Positions 15,397-26,627 of a DNA stretch of 28,663 bases are shown piece by piece. This DNA comes from a virus. Position 1 is the stretch's first letter. Each line of letters starts with the position of its first letter. Both the position numbers and the translations under genes were made by a program. The stretch spans positions 1-28,663 of IMG/VR virus record IMGVR_UViG_3300044825_000944. One strand, written 5' to 3'. Under the pieces are notes generated by a model. That model was not told where the DNA came from and made no database searches. It was given only the letters and a program-made list of their open reading frames with translations.

Positions 15397-15475
15397 GGGG
15401 GTGAATGGAATGCAGGACTGTAAAGCCTCACGAAGGACACAGACCTAGACCTGGGTTCGATTCCCAGCACCTCCA
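15397..15475 (+). tRNA. tRNA-Tyr-like element lacking a D-arm
   Basis: The acceptor arms GGGGGTG (15397-15403) and CACCTCC (15468-15474) form 7 bp with one G-T pair. The T-arm is perfect: CTGGG, TTCGATT, CCCAG (15451-15467). The middle loop CTGTAAA (15418-15424) is the classic tRNA-Tyr anticodon loop with GTA at 15420-15422, on a weak stem (AGG/CCT core). A 21-nt region between anticodon stem and T-arm matches the long variable arm of bacterial tRNA-Tyr. The next base is A73, as in bacterial tRNA-Tyr, followed by CCCA. Only about six bases (15406-15411) lie where the D-arm should be. It could be a minimal or decayed tRNA or a tRNA mimic; function is uncertain. Confidence 0.4.
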
Positions 15476-15529
15476 CCCACACCTGGATCGGCAGGCCCCA
15501 GGGTGAGTCACAAGACCTGTATGTCACAG

Positions 15530-21839: not shown

Positions 21840-22103
21840 GTGGACCCAATGACAGAGTCTAGCGATGCAAAGCGGCATGACGATATGTGCCGTGCTGGCA
21901 GCCAATGGGATCAACACTGCATGTGCCAGTTCATTTCGCGGGTGCGATCTGATGAGCGATCCAAATTGGCTAAGGTGATGGGTCAGGTGTCGCACCAGAA
22001 TGCCGACCAGGGCAACAGGATAACGGTCTTTGCTGGCAAGCCAGTCAACGGCAGCGTGCTGGTCTGGCAGGATGGTCAGTACGTTTGGGTAAACCCCCGA
22101 TGA
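21840..22103 (+). CDS. Cys-rich small protein, paralog A
   Basis: The GTG at 21840 has GAGG at the right distance; ATG 21849 is an alternative that gives MTESSDAK as N-terminus. The product carries HDDMC, nine residues, CMC, then QFISRVRSDERSK, so the motif is HDxxC...CxCx[LF]IxxVxxxER. The C-terminal half is different (RITVFAGKPVNGSVLVWQDGQYVW, a beta hairpin). It is the first of four adjacent genes with the same motif (next at 22100, 22402, 22620). The Cys/His set suggests a small zinc site. Related small proteins are common in actinobacterial phages as hypotheticals. Function unknown. Confidence 0.68.
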   Translation: MDPMTESSDAKRHDDMCRAGSQWDQHCMCQFISRVRSDERSKLAKVMGQVSHQNADQGNRITVFAGKPVNGSVLVWQDGQYVWVNPR

Positions 22104-22369
22104 CCCACGACCCGCTGTGCCCGCTGGAGCAGCCGTGCGAGCGAGGGCTTCACCACCTACTGGCCTATCCCTCCGCACCTCCGATCTGGTGCGAGCCCTG
22201 CGGAACCGAATGCCGATGCGCCCTGATTGCCCAGGTCGTCAAGCGGGAGCAGGAGAAGGCAGCAGAGCGAATTGCGTCTATTGAGCCAGTGGGCGAGCCC
22301 TTCGATGGCGGTTACCACGATGGTTACCGCGACGCCCTAGATCATGCGGAGCAGGCGGTCACAGCATGA
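22100..22369 (+). CDS. Cys-rich small protein, paralog B
   Basis: An 89-aa protein starting MTHDPLCPLEQPC at an ATG that overlaps the previous stop (ATGA). It has eight Cys and several His: CP..PC, then WCEPCGTECRCALIAQVVKREQEK. The CxC followed by [AL]LIxxVxxxE motif is shared with the neighbours; the insert between HDPLC and CxC is the longest of the four and adds a CxxC pair, enough for a second zinc site. The C-terminus is acidic (EPFDGGYHDGYRDALDHAEQ). Function unknown. Confidence 0.7.
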   Translation: MTHDPLCPLEQPCERGLHHLLAYPSAPPIWCEPCGTECRCALIAQVVKREQEKAAERIASIEPVGEPFDGGYHDGYRDALDHAEQAVTA

Positions 22370-22401
22370 GCAGCGAACACCGGGACTCACATGGAGCATG
22401 T

Positions 22402-22617
22402 ATGACCCACGACCCGCTGTGCCCTTGTGAGAGTCACAAGCAGCCGCACATCAAGTACCTAGGCGGTCATTGCCACTACTGCCAATGCGACCTGATCGCC
22501 ACGGTAGCCGATCGCGAGCGGGCGAAGGCAACCAAGGTGACCACAGGCGGCACCTTCGGGCCGGGGGTGGACGGCATCACGGATGCCGATGTCACCGCTT
22601 TCTTGGAGCAGATCTAG
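22402..22617 (+). CDS. Cys-rich small protein, paralog C
   Basis: A 71-aa protein, MTHDPLCPCESHKQPH... with HCHYCQCDLIATVADRERAK. ATG 22402 is chosen because its first eight residues equal those of paralogs B and D and GGAG precedes it. An in-frame ATG at 22366, overlapping the previous stop, would add 12 residues. Cys 7, 9 and a later HxHxxCxC give a likely zinc site. The C-terminus (FGPGVDGITDADVTAFLEQI) is unrelated to B and D. Function unknown. Confidence 0.68.
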   Translation: MTHDPLCPCESHKQPHIKYLGGHCHYCQCDLIATVADRERAKATKVTTGGTFGPGVDGITDADVTAFLEQI

Positions 22618-22619
22618 CC

Positions 22620-22829
22620 ATGACTCACGATCCGTTGTGCCCTCGCGCCACATACGACATGCCGTGCTGCTGCAACCTGATTGAGCGCGTAAGGGCTCAC
22701 GAGCGACAGCGATTCGTCAACATTGTTGATCAGCGCACGACTGAACTCACAACATGCGGACACGAAAACTGCCGGACACTTGCGGACGGGGCTCGCCTCG
22801 CCCTCAACGAGTGCCTAGCGTCCATCTGA
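22620..22829 (+). CDS. Cys-rich small protein, paralog D
   Basis: A 69-aa protein, MTHDPLCPRATYDMPCCCNLIERVRAHERQRF, two nt after paralog C. The HDPLC to CCC distance is the shortest of the set. A second Cys/His group follows (TTCGHENCRTLADGARLALNEC). GGAG lies 11 nt upstream of the ATG. It is the last gene before 600 nt of non-coding DNA. The shared MTHDPLCP start and IxxVRxxER helix show common descent with A-C. Function unknown. Confidence 0.7.
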   Translation: MTHDPLCPRATYDMPCCCNLIERVRAHERQRFVNIVDQRTTELTTCGHENCRTLADGARLALNECLASI

Positions 22830-22860
22830 TATCCTTGCCACCTACCTACCCAGTAGAGCC

Positions 22861-22892
22861 GAACCCCGGTTGAGGTCATCTCACCGGGGTTC
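22861..22892 (+). terminator. 13-bp hairpin ending the Cys-rich operon
   Basis: GAACCCCGG (22861-22869) pairs with CCGGGGTTC (22884-22892). After a one-base bulge, TGAG (22871-22874) pairs with CTCA (22880-22883) over a 5-nt loop. It begins 31 nt after the last stop. No T tract follows, so efficiency on its own is doubtful; a second, T-tailed terminator follows at 22933. Confidence 0.55.
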
Positions 22893-22932
22893 GTGCATTC
22901 CAAGTCCGCAACGTAAGAATTGACGACTAACT

Positions 22933-22963
22933 CCCCATCGTCCCCAGGGACTGGTGGGGTTTT
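22933..22963 (+). terminator. Rho-independent terminator, copy 1
   Basis: CCCCATCG (22933-22940) pairs with TGGTGGGG (22952-22959), and TCC pairs with GGA inside, followed directly by TTTT. The design and much of the sequence (CTCCCCATCG...GGTGGGGTTT) recur at 23374-23403. The tRNA-like element begins two bases after the T run. Confidence 0.72.
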
Positions 22964-22964
22964 A

Positions 22965-23032
22965 TCCACCCGCGCTGGGCGCAGACGGGCCTCCAAATCC
23001 TGTCGTGCTGAGTTCGATTCTCAGGGGTGGGG
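22965..23032 (+). tRNA. tRNA-Trp-like element with a shrunken D-arm
   Basis: The acceptor TCCACCC (22965-22971) pairs with GGGTGGG (23025-23031), 7 bp with one T-G. The T-arm is perfect: CTGAG, TTCGATT, CTCAG (23008-23024). The anticodon loop CTCCAAA (22991-22997) is the typical tRNA-Trp loop with CCA at 22993-22995, on a stem whose closing pair is mismatched but with four further pairs. The variable loop has the normal five bases. Base 73 is G, as in bacterial tRNA-Trp. The D-arm is only 11 nt (CTG/CAG, loop GGCG), about five short. The 3' end reads CTA instead of CCA. It may be a functional minimal tRNA, a relic or a mimic. Confidence 0.42.
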
Positions 23033-23034
23033 CT

Positions 23035-23357
23035 ATCGGCAGGATCATGCCGATTCTCGGCAAACGGTACGGCAGAAGTCCGGCAGATGATCCAGTTCGG
23101 CACAAGCGTGCCGATATCAGCACAGGGCTGCCTGCGGATTCGGTAGCCCCGGAGTTGTGGATCTGGTGTTGTGCTAAACCACAACACGGCACGAGCCTGC
23201 CGTTGCGTATCCGCGCACATCTCATTAGTCGAGGATGACTTCACGCAATGGGAAGTTATCGTCCCCATTCACGACCGTGATGTTTTGATTACATCAAAGC
23301 ATCATTGCTGCTTTCCCGGAATGACTGCCGCGCTATTCCGGGTTAGGCGCTAACCCG
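23035..23357 (+). ncRNA. Hairpin-dense non-coding block, candidate structured RNA
   Basis: No gene fits here, but perfect short hairpins follow each other: ATCGGCA/TGCCGAT (23035-23054), TCGGCAC/GTGCCGA (23097-23114), GGGCTGCC/GGTAGCCC (23125-23149), GTGTTGTG/CACAACAC (23166-23187), ACGGCA/TGCCGT (23186-23203), TTTGAT/ATCAAA (23284-23298), CCCGGAAT/ATTCCGGG (23315-23342), CGGGTTA/TAACCCG (23339-23357). CGGCA occurs six times and TGCCG four times. Some arms can swap partners (GTTGTGG at 23154-23160 also pairs with CCACAAC at 23179-23185). It lies between two near-identical terminators. No known RNA class is recognised. RNA status is inferred from structure alone. Confidence 0.4.
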
Positions 23358-23373
23358 AGATTACGATCCAGCT

Positions 23374-23403
23374 CCCCATCGCCCCTCAGGGCCGGTGGGG
23401 TTT
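23374..23403 (+). terminator. Rho-independent terminator, copy 2
   Basis: CCCCATCG (23374-23381) pairs with CGGTGGGG (23393-23400), an inner CCC/GGG pair closes a TCA loop, and TTTCTGTTT follows. It closely resembles the terminator at 22933. It ends 26 nt before the small leader ORF. Confidence 0.72.
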
Positions 23404-23428
23404 CTGTTTGCCACCTGAAGGAGGAGTC

Positions 23429-23482
23429 ATGGATGACGACATTTGGGACTTCCTGGGCTATGTCGAATATGACGAGGACTGA
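23429..23482 (+). CDS. 17-aa acidic leader peptide
   Basis: MDDDIWDFLGYVEYDED, preceded by the strong Shine-Dalgarno AAGGAGGAG. Its TGA overlaps the ATG of the large tail protein (TGATG). The tail gene has no ribosome binding site of its own apart from sequence inside this ORF, so translation is probably handed on from the leader. Eight of 17 residues are Asp or Glu. It may act only as a coupling device, or as a real micro-protein. Confidence 0.5.
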   Translation: MDDDIWDFLGYVEYDED

Positions 23483-25365
23483 TGACTGTCACAACTGACA
23501 TCACCGACTCCGTACTCCTAGATATCGGTATCGCCTACTCGTCCAGCCTGACCTCGTATTCGCTGGGCGCTTTCGCCTATGAGTGGGCGATTGCCGGTCA
23601 GCCGTTCCTGGGTGTGGCTTCGGACGAGTTCCCTCTGTCTCGTGGTTTCACTGCCTCCAATAAGGAGCAGTTCGATAATCAGCGGGATCCTGGTGAGCAG
23701 TCTCTGACGGGCTGGTGGCTTAGGTCGCAGCGTGACTTCTCGGGTGGTGCTGGCATCACCTTTCTTGAGCCTGCCGATGACGAGCGCACGATGCGCCGGT
23801 TCACATCGAGCGTTGGGATTGACTGTTGGACACCGGGTGAGTTCAAGCTCCTGAGGAGTATGAGCCTTCAGGATGCGTCTACGGGTTCTGCCCGGTGTGT
23901 GTCTGTCGTGAGTGGTTCCACGAACTATGTGTATCTGACAACGAATAACAAGGTGTATAGGTCTACGGGGTCTGGGTCTTCGACGGAGATCACGGGCTGG
24001 ACTGCGAACCCGTCGTGGCTGGTGTCTACGGGTGACGGTGTGTGGGGTTTCCACTCCACGGGTATCGACTTCGCTGCCGCTTCCGGCACTACTGCTTCCT
24101 CGAAGTGGACGGGTGCTGCGTCTGCCGGTAAGGGCTGGTGGGTGAAGCAGCGTCTGATTGCCGCCTATGGTGCGGCCCTGCATGAGTTGGGTGGTTTCAC
24201 AGGTGGGGCACTTCCTTCAGCCATTTACACTCACCCTCAGTCGGGCTGGACATGGACTGCTGCGGTTGATAGCCCAGGTGCGATCCTGGCTGCTGGCTAT
24301 TCAGGGAACTCTTCAGCGATCTACAAGTTCACCGTGGATGAGGCTGACGGCTCGCTCCCTACTCTTACCGCCGCAGTCACGGTAGCGGAGCTGCCTGTTG
24401 GCGAGTACGTCACGGGCATGTTCTCCTACTTGGGTGCGCTGCTGGTGATCGGCACGAACAAGGGGATCCGTATCGGTCAGGTGTCTGACCAGGGCCAGGT
24501 CACCTACGGTGCCTTGACGTACCAGTCGTCTGCCCCGGTGGAGTTCTTCACGGGGTTCGACAGGTTCGTGTTCGCTGGGGTGAAGGACTCGATCGACGGC
24601 AAGAGTGGAGTGGTTCGCCTTGATCTATCTGATCTTGATGCGTCGGGCAGGGCTGCCTACGCCTTCGACGTATCAACCGGAGTTACGGGATCCGTTGATG
24701 GAGTGTGCCTGCTGGGTTCCTCTGACCGTGTCTGCGTTGGAGTCAACGGGTCGGGGACGTATGTGACTTCAGCTTCGACGCTGGTGGCGTCGGGCACCTT
24801 GTACACAGGGCAGGTCAGGTACAACACGCTGGAGAATAAGTCGTTCCGGTTCCTGAACGTGAGGCGTTTCGGTGAGCTGAAGGGCAGCGTTGCTGTCTCC
24901 ACGGTGCAGCAGGGTGGGACTGAGGCGGGTATCTACACCTACCCTGAGGGGTCAGCGAACACCGAGGTGCAGGTTGTTCCTTCGGTTCCTGTTGAGTCTC
25001 TTGGCCTGAAGTTCGTGCTGACACGTTCCTCATCAGATACATCTAAGGGTCCGATCATTCGGGGTTGGCAGTTCAAGGCTCTGCCTGCTGTCACCCGCAA
25101 GCAAGTGTGGCGCTTACCGCTCCTAGTCTTCGACGCCGAAACCGATCGCTTTGGTCAGAAGATCGGCTACCCCGGTTACGCCATGACGCGCTGGCAGAAC
25201 CTGAGGAACGCTCTTCTTGCTGGCACACCTGTCGTCCTACAGGACTTCCTCGCTAAAGAGACGTACACGGTTCTGATCGAGGACATCCAGATGGTTCAAA
25301 CCTCTCCCCCACGGCAACAGTCAGGACTGGGCGGTGTGCTTGTCGTGACCTGTCGGGAGTTGTAA
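23482..25365 (+). CDS. Large tail protein, probable nozzle or hub
   Basis: A 627-aa beta-rich protein. Residues 1-130 carry an N-terminal domain (YSLGAFAYEWAIAGQPFLGVASDEFPLSRGF). The centre, about 135-470, has blade-like repeats consistent with a beta-propeller (TNYVYLTTNNKVYRSTG; YLGALLVIGTNKGIRIGQV; GFDRFVFAGVKDSIDG; DRVCVGVNGSGTYV). The C-terminal part (RGWQFKALPAVTRKQVWRLPLLVF; ALLAGTPVVLQDFLAKETYTVLIEDI) resembles minor tail or hub proteins. A propeller-bearing tail tube end is the T7 gp12-like nozzle arrangement, so that role is proposed. It precedes the lysis genes, also in keeping with the last tail gene. Confidence 0.72.
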   Translation: MTVTTDITDSVLLDIGIAYSSSLTSYSLGAFAYEWAIAGQPFLGVASDEFPLSRGFTASNKEQFDNQRDPGEQSLTGWWLRSQRDFSGGAGITFLEPADDERTMRRFTSSVGIDCWTPGEFKLLRSMSLQDASTGSARCVSVVSGSTNYVYLTTNNKVYRSTGSGSSTEITGWTANPSWLVSTGDGVWGFHSTGIDFAAASGTTASSKWTGAASAGKGWWVKQRLIAAYGAALHELGGFTGGALPSAIYTHPQSGWTWTAAVDSPGAILAAGYSGNSSAIYKFTVDEADGSLPTLTAAVTVAELPVGEYVTGMFSYLGALLVIGTNKGIRIGQVSDQGQVTYGALTYQSSAPVEFFTGFDRFVFAGVKDSIDGKSGVVRLDLSDLDASGRAAYAFDVSTGVTGSVDGVCLLGSSDRVCVGVNGSGTYVTSASTLVASGTLYTGQVRYNTLENKSFRFLNVRRFGELKGSVAVSTVQQGGTEAGIYTYPEGSANTEVQVVPSVPVESLGLKFVLTRSSSDTSKGPIIRGWQFKALPAVTRKQVWRLPLLVFDAETDRFGQKIGYPGYAMTRWQNLRNALLAGTPVVLQDFLAKETYTVLIEDIQMVQTSPPRQQSGLGGVLVVTCREL

Positions 25366-26535: not shown

Positions 26536-26612
26536 GAGCCATTCTGGGGGGTTTGAGTACCGTACCCTAGTCATAACCCTAGGGTCATACCTTGAACCCC
26601 CCAGAATGGCTC
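26536..26612. terminator. Large nested hairpin between convergent operons
   Basis: The arms 26536-26557 and 26591-26612 form 18 perfect base pairs (GAGCCATTCTGGGGGGTT with its complement) plus weaker pairs. Inside, ACCCTAG (26564-26570) pairs with CTAGGGT (26579-26585). It begins 22 nt after the endolysin stop and faces the ends of the minus-strand genes, so a bidirectional terminator is the simplest reading. It lacks clear T tracts. A protein-binding or recombination role is possible. Confidence 0.55.
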
Positions 26613-26627
26613 AGATCGCCAGGGAGA

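Follow-up and report, generated by a model that had tools for sequence, protein, structure and literature searches.

A mosaic, hairpin-rich spacer in the late tail operon of an uncultured phage: a candidate RNA control region

Introduction

What might a densely folded, terminator-framed spacer be doing within a run of late phage genes? The question is raised by an IMG/VR virus record of 28,663 bases, the whole of which constitutes the window analyzed here. Its left end carries a terminase gene, and it further encodes tail proteins, a holin, an amidase endolysin, a tyrosine integrase and a putative capsid-like protein, the last assigned from position alone. The spacer lies between a group of small ORFs that contain cysteines (21.8-22.8 kb) and a tail-region gene at 23482, with all three sharing one direction of transcription. 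The close relatives of the 627-aa tail-region protein are from other IMG/VR contigs, and its GenBank relatives, at ~35% identity, are mainly from Streptomyces phages; hence, on sequence grounds, this uncultured phage is likely to infect actinobacteria. Searches with either the tail protein or the micro-ORF described below recovered no relatives in bacterial genomes.

A first-pass annotation, made from the letters of the sequence alone, had read the spacer as an independently transcribed, terminated small RNA or, alternatively, as the product of repeated insertion of a transcription-unit cassette. The matter reaches beyond this locus: terminators and structured spacers in late operons bear on the dosage of individual structural proteins in actinobacteriophages, a subject that to our knowledge has been little studied.

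As a side observation, the neighboring small ORFs at 22100-22829 (+; about 70-94 aa) have a common start, MTHDPLCP, and a common Cys/His spacing, and are apparently paralogous to each other. An ORF resembling this type (MTHDPMC...) sits ahead of the spacer in L013; a PHROG and Pfam search gave no match among those tested.

An excess of structure between two terminators

The spacer and its immediate surroundings contain the following features:

22860..22893 (+), upstream hairpin: 11-bp perfect inverted repeat CGAACCCCGGT/ACCGGGGTTCG, part of the module shared with L011
22931..22962 (+), terminator 1: CTCCCCATCGTCCCCAGGGACTGGTGGGGTTT; stem CCCCATCGTCCC/GGGACTGGTGGGG, then TTTTA
22965..23031 (+), tRNA-like cloverleaf, as the minimum-energy fold
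23035..23054 (+), CGGCA-N6-TGCCG inverted repeat 1; fold z -3.8
23097..23114 (+), CGGCA-N6-TGCCG inverted repeat 2; fold z -4.3
23125..23149 (+), 8-bp hairpin GGGCTGCC/GGTAGCCC, from the fold analysis
23128..23206 (+), 79-nt core, 97.5% identical in the L017 contig
23186..23203 (+), CGGCA-N6-TGCCG inverted repeat 3, identical in L017
23204..23215 (+), small hairpin, from the comparison with L017
23220..23253 (+), hairpin H (CTCATT...GAGGATGACTTC...AATGGG); the window copy is a diverged member
23278..23304 (+), 12-bp A+T-rich hairpin with one mismatch, TGATGTTTTGAT/ATCAAAGCATCA; z -6.3
23315..23357 (+), a pair of hairpins that exclude one another, CCCGGAAT/ATTCCGGG and CGGGTTAG/CTAACCCG, from sequence and fold
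23372..23403 (+), terminator 2: CTCCCCATCGCCCCTCAGGGCCGGTGGGGTTT; stem CCCCATCGCCC/GGGCCGGTGGGG, then TTTCTGTTT
23429..23482 (+), micro-ORF of 17 codons, MDDDIWDFLGYVEYDED; its ribosome-binding site, GGAGGAG, is strong
23482..25365 (+), tail-region gene (phrog_11667, 627 aa), downstream of the micro-ORF

The hairpin-rich, terminator-framed block described in the first pass is real. The two T-tailed hairpins that frame it are 81% identical, with fold energies of about -19.5 kcal/mol each (z -3.6 and -2.8 for terminators 1 and 2, respectively). In both putative terminators a G+C-rich stem leads, in the transcribed direction, into a short T run (TTTTA and TTTCTGTTT), and both share the orientation of the surrounding late genes, which is expected inside a polycistronic operon. 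The block at 23034-23405 folds at -160.9 kcal/mol, which relative to shuffled sequences gives a z of -6.1 on the transcribed strand versus -4.0 on the opposite strand. This lies far beyond the shuffled controls, the comparison by which the earlier annotation had proposed that its claim be judged. Across the window, 338-nt tiles have a mean fold z of -0.9 (sd 1.5), and only one tile, over an inverted repeat near 26.54 kb, folds below the value of the block.

The same excess is seen in the constituent words and stems. Exactly the six CGGCA and four TGCCG words claimed earlier are found in 23034-23371, i.e., 10 as against 1.25 +/- 1.09 (maximum 6) in 300 dinucleotide shuffles of that interval. 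A strict count (non-overlapping stems of 6 bp or more, with loops of 3-8) yields 5 hairpins in the block versus 0.41 +/- 0.68 in shuffles (maximum 3); one other site in the window, around 6.8-6.9 kb, also reaches 5. The earlier figure of at least eight hairpins is attained when overlapping stems and longer loops are admitted, which brings in ACGGCA/TGCCGT at 23186-23203, CCCGGAAT/ATTCCGGG at 23315-23342 and AATGGG/CCCATT, but not by the strict count. The alternative pairings are likewise genuine: GTTGTGG (23154-23160) and GTGTTGTG (23166-23173) are both complementary to CCACAAC (23179-23185). To these we add a second mutually exclusive choice, between CCCGGAAT/ATTCCGGG and CGGGTTAG/CTAACCCG (23339-23357), which share CCGGG. 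As stated in the first pass, no known RNA family is recognizable, with Rfam giving no match to the block even at E-values up to 10, and no gene lies within it; we rejected it as coding DNA, the best PHROG match of the four overlapping ORFs having an E-value of 0.084.

The element abutting terminator 1 resembles degenerate phage tRNA genes in having a cloverleaf with a tryptophan-type anticodon loop (CTCCAAA, with CCA at 22993-22995) and a T arm, here TTCGATT; its acceptor stem is 7 bp. It differs from them in its tiny D arm (4 bp with a loop of 3 nt), in lacking an encoded CCA end or a match to the Rfam tRNA covariance model (E-values up to 10), and in directly adjoining a terminator. Its minimum-energy cloverleaf, with an aberrant D arm and a 9-nt anticodon loop, is unexceptional in stability (z -1.5). 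ARAGORN calls a tRNA-Ala overlapping both this element and the terminator, with a different anticodon.

Invariant-arm repeats: RNA hairpins or DNA sites

The window has three copies of the 16-bp CGGCA-N6-TGCCG form, L012 has two and L017 has one, and in all the DNA that we fetched it is restricted to this spacer position. Its stems are invariant whereas the six central bases vary; since the stems do not change, they furnish no covariation evidence for pairing as RNA. In these respects the block resembles intergenic repeat motifs already described in actinobacteriophages: the SAS/ESAS of Cluster K (PMC3203893) and EF, the 18-bp inverted repeats of Cluster EG Microbacterium phages (PMC7302621) and the 17-bp dyad repeats of Cluster O mycobacteriophages (PMC4351075), the latter two with invariant arms and a variable center. 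Such motifs often occupy small intergenic gaps and are conserved across mosaic genomes, with no assigned function (PMC3203893, PMC7302621, PMC4351075). The likeness lies in short intergenic inverted repeats whose arms do not vary, three in the window and three in two relatives. The differences are that the copies here are clustered in one spacer as opposed to being dispersed near several start codons, and that they have their own sequence and are mixed with terminators, a tRNA-like element and hairpin H.

These parallels give some substance to an alternative that we deem unlikely, namely that a dimeric protein, from the phage or its host, binds the palindromes as DNA in the manner of an operator or stoperator, the RNA hairpins being by-products of dyad symmetry. 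Invariant stems around variable centers, as in the Cluster O and EG repeats, together with the restriction of the 16-bp form to this position, are compatible with it. However, it accounts for just three of the hairpins, all its sites fall within a single spacer instead of being scattered over the genome, and folding is stronger on the transcribed strand than on the opposite one. Most likely, the block functions at the RNA level, on the transcribed strand.

A mosaic of separately shared modules

Comparison with related phages, which had been suggested as a check, gave a divided answer: pieces of the block are shared separately, but none of about 100 related loci has it as a whole. Neither the scanned viral collection nor GenBank phage records yielded a meaningful homologue of the entire block, and its left part has none in plasmids. 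The module at 22827-23033 is 94.7% identical in L011, with divergence beyond it, and the unit comprising terminator 1 and the tRNA-like element is 99% identical over 106 nt in the contigs of L011 and L085. L017 matches at 84% over 23104-23256, which includes the 79-nt core, and the module at 23363-23482 with terminator 2 and the micro-ORF is 90% identical in L008, L009 and L021. As the flanking coding DNA of L011, L017 and L008 is only 76-80% identical, these pieces have either been exchanged or are under constraint; modules reach 95-99% identity between phages whose flanking genes agree at only 76-79% of DNA positions. The spacer also illustrates mosaic exchange below the level of the gene, in pieces of about 80-200 nt. 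The closest relatives, with a tail protein 94% identical, retain hairpin H without most of the block; thus, most of the hairpins are dispensable.

The 79-nt core unites the competing GTTGTGG/GTGTTGTG/CCACAAC stems with CGGCA repeat 3; in a search for the GTTGTG stem in other architectures, only the L017 contig was found. In that comparison one compensated pair, G-C here and A-U in L017 (in the small hairpin at 23204..23215), is accompanied by three one-sided changes that keep pairing, and the same small hairpin shows one U-G to U-A change.

The idea of a mobile cassette fares unevenly against these data. Terminator 1 and the tRNA-like element do move as a unit between phages, but repeated insertion of one cassette is not borne out, because the two terminators belong to different modules found in different relatives and their sequence is widespread. 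The terminator 1 type is present in nine IMG/VR stretches, several in different gene surroundings, and at 85-88% in Microbacterium phages, i.e., in many phages both related and unrelated. With a stem type so widespread, two similar terminators require no duplication event, and they are not obvious copies of one cassette; internal duplication as the origin of the pair is unsupported, given the different modules and the widespread type. The CCCCATCG...CGGTGGGG stem is thus akin to the actinophage intrinsic terminators common to Microbacterium phages and other IMG/VR contigs, differing in that two copies lie close together in one operon.

A point in favor of the cassette idea comes from contig IMGVR_UViG_3300042905_001100 (L013/L086/L097), which has two hairpin-H-plus-micro-ORF units, one near each end. 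Both units lie behind genes whose 3' ends are alike in kind, and this arrangement suggests a repeated gene cassette in that contig.

Hairpin H and the micro-ORF

Hairpin H recurs in 12 distinct versions, all equal in length and orientation, and 11 of these are upstream of the micro-ORF or a related ORF (the exception being L105; in L104 it precedes a related short ORF, MDDDIWTILYGDWED). In most versions the outer stem is paired. The hairpin uses G-U pairs that would become A-C on the opposite strand, and three pairs are changed on both sides. As 193 of 500 shuffles reach its covariation score, the covariation is suggestive only; taken with the one compensated pair of L017, the covariation check called for in the first pass returned a weak signal and was not decisive. 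When further relatives were sought by a GAGGATG-type pattern, the matches beyond L086 and L083 looked like chance, with L119 uncertain.

The micro-ORF, which the earlier annotation lacked, starts 25 nt past terminator 2, and in the sequence its stop codon overlaps the start of the tail gene. It is represented by 14 distinct DNA versions, most of which encode an identical protein with 3-8 synonymous codon changes; 14 of the 23 variable sites are at third codon positions and 9 at first or second ones. This pattern is a clear sign of purifying selection at the protein level. The micro-ORF is also found among unrelated genes in four contigs (L090, L091, L092 and L102), and in L013, L017 and L085 the DNA directly upstream of it folds with z-scores of -6.0, -4.7 and -5.2. 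In practical terms, this conserved neighboring microprotein offers a testable target for regulation.

A candidate control region of the late tail operon

Several lines of evidence converge at this point: the excess of structure, modules that have been exchanged or constrained, the fixed orientation of hairpin H, the direction of the terminators and the lack of a visible internal promoter. The simplest reading, which we hold with moderate confidence, is that the spacer serves the late tail operon as an intercistronic region of RNA control, built by recombination from interchangeable hairpin modules; most likely, it provides mRNA control signals for the microprotein and the tail gene rather than constituting a separate RNA gene. 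Briefly, we advance the following mechanism. The modules would be terminator 1 with the tRNA-like element, the CGGCA inverted repeats, the GTTGTG stem, hairpin H, and terminator 2 with the micro-ORF. The terminators, presumably functional, would end part of the upstream transcripts, and the messages that read through would carry a hairpin-rich leader ahead of the 17-aa micro-ORF, to which the tail gene may be translationally coupled. The folded leader might then influence read-through, stability or processing, as well as translation, with the mutually exclusive stems setting the level of read-through, processing and translation. That the hairpins affect expression, and in which direction, is what we infer from this arrangement.

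An alternative with as modest a claim as the DNA sites is neutral debris: an inter-module recombination hotspot might have gathered terminators, broken tRNA genes and palindromes that have no present function. This is conceivable because the nearest relatives do without most of the pieces; the composition of the spacer differs in every relative, and the tRNA-like element has an aberrant D arm and no match to the Rfam tRNA model. Against this, the pieces are better conserved than the neighboring genes, the structure excess is kept in several relatives, and hairpin H holds its orientation and, one exception aside, its place.

Compared with the general control region favored above, a more novel role is improbable, namely that of a modular cis-acting RNA for antitermination or attenuation in the late operon, whose exclusive hairpins would determine whether the polymerase gets past terminator 2 and on to the microprotein and tail gene. 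The best model for such a role, by analogy, would be the put RNA of HK022, a cis-acting element of about 70 nt with two stem-loops that contacts the polymerase and lets it read through terminators (PMC9378689). Going by its description, the window hairpins may be likened to it in also preceding a terminator inside an operon, whereas put acts in the early operons of a lambdoid phage and the block lies in a late operon.

Least probable is the small RNA of the first-pass annotation, independently transcribed, ending at terminator 2 and possibly released by processing after the tRNA-like element: a terminator at each side, a strong overall fold and a 5'-border element that could be a processing site fit it, but a tool scan and a relaxed scan, both covering the sigma-70-like type, found no such promoter between the terminators, the unit as a whole is without a homologue in the viral collection or phage records, and unit-wide covariation is absent.

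Other structured elements in the window

Two further elements in the window merit mention. The first, at 15397-15478 (+), is an 82-nt element with an Rfam tmRNA match of 48 bits that comprises the two tmRNA ends only, so that the tRNA-like domain is present and the mRNA-like part is missing. Its acceptor stem (GGGGGTG/CACCTCC) has a G3-U70 pair, as in alanine acceptors, and similar elements are present in five related phage contigs; it may be an attachment site, or else a tmRNA-like RNA in its own right. The second, at 26536-26616 between the endolysin and the integrase, is a nearly perfect inverted repeat of ~20 bp (GAGCCATTCTGGGGGGTT... / ...AACCCCCCAGAATGGCTC), within which a CCCTAG repeat is nested. 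As it is without a T run, it is possibly an attachment site or a binding site; it forms the strongest fold of the window (z -8.9) and is conserved in L003 and L005.
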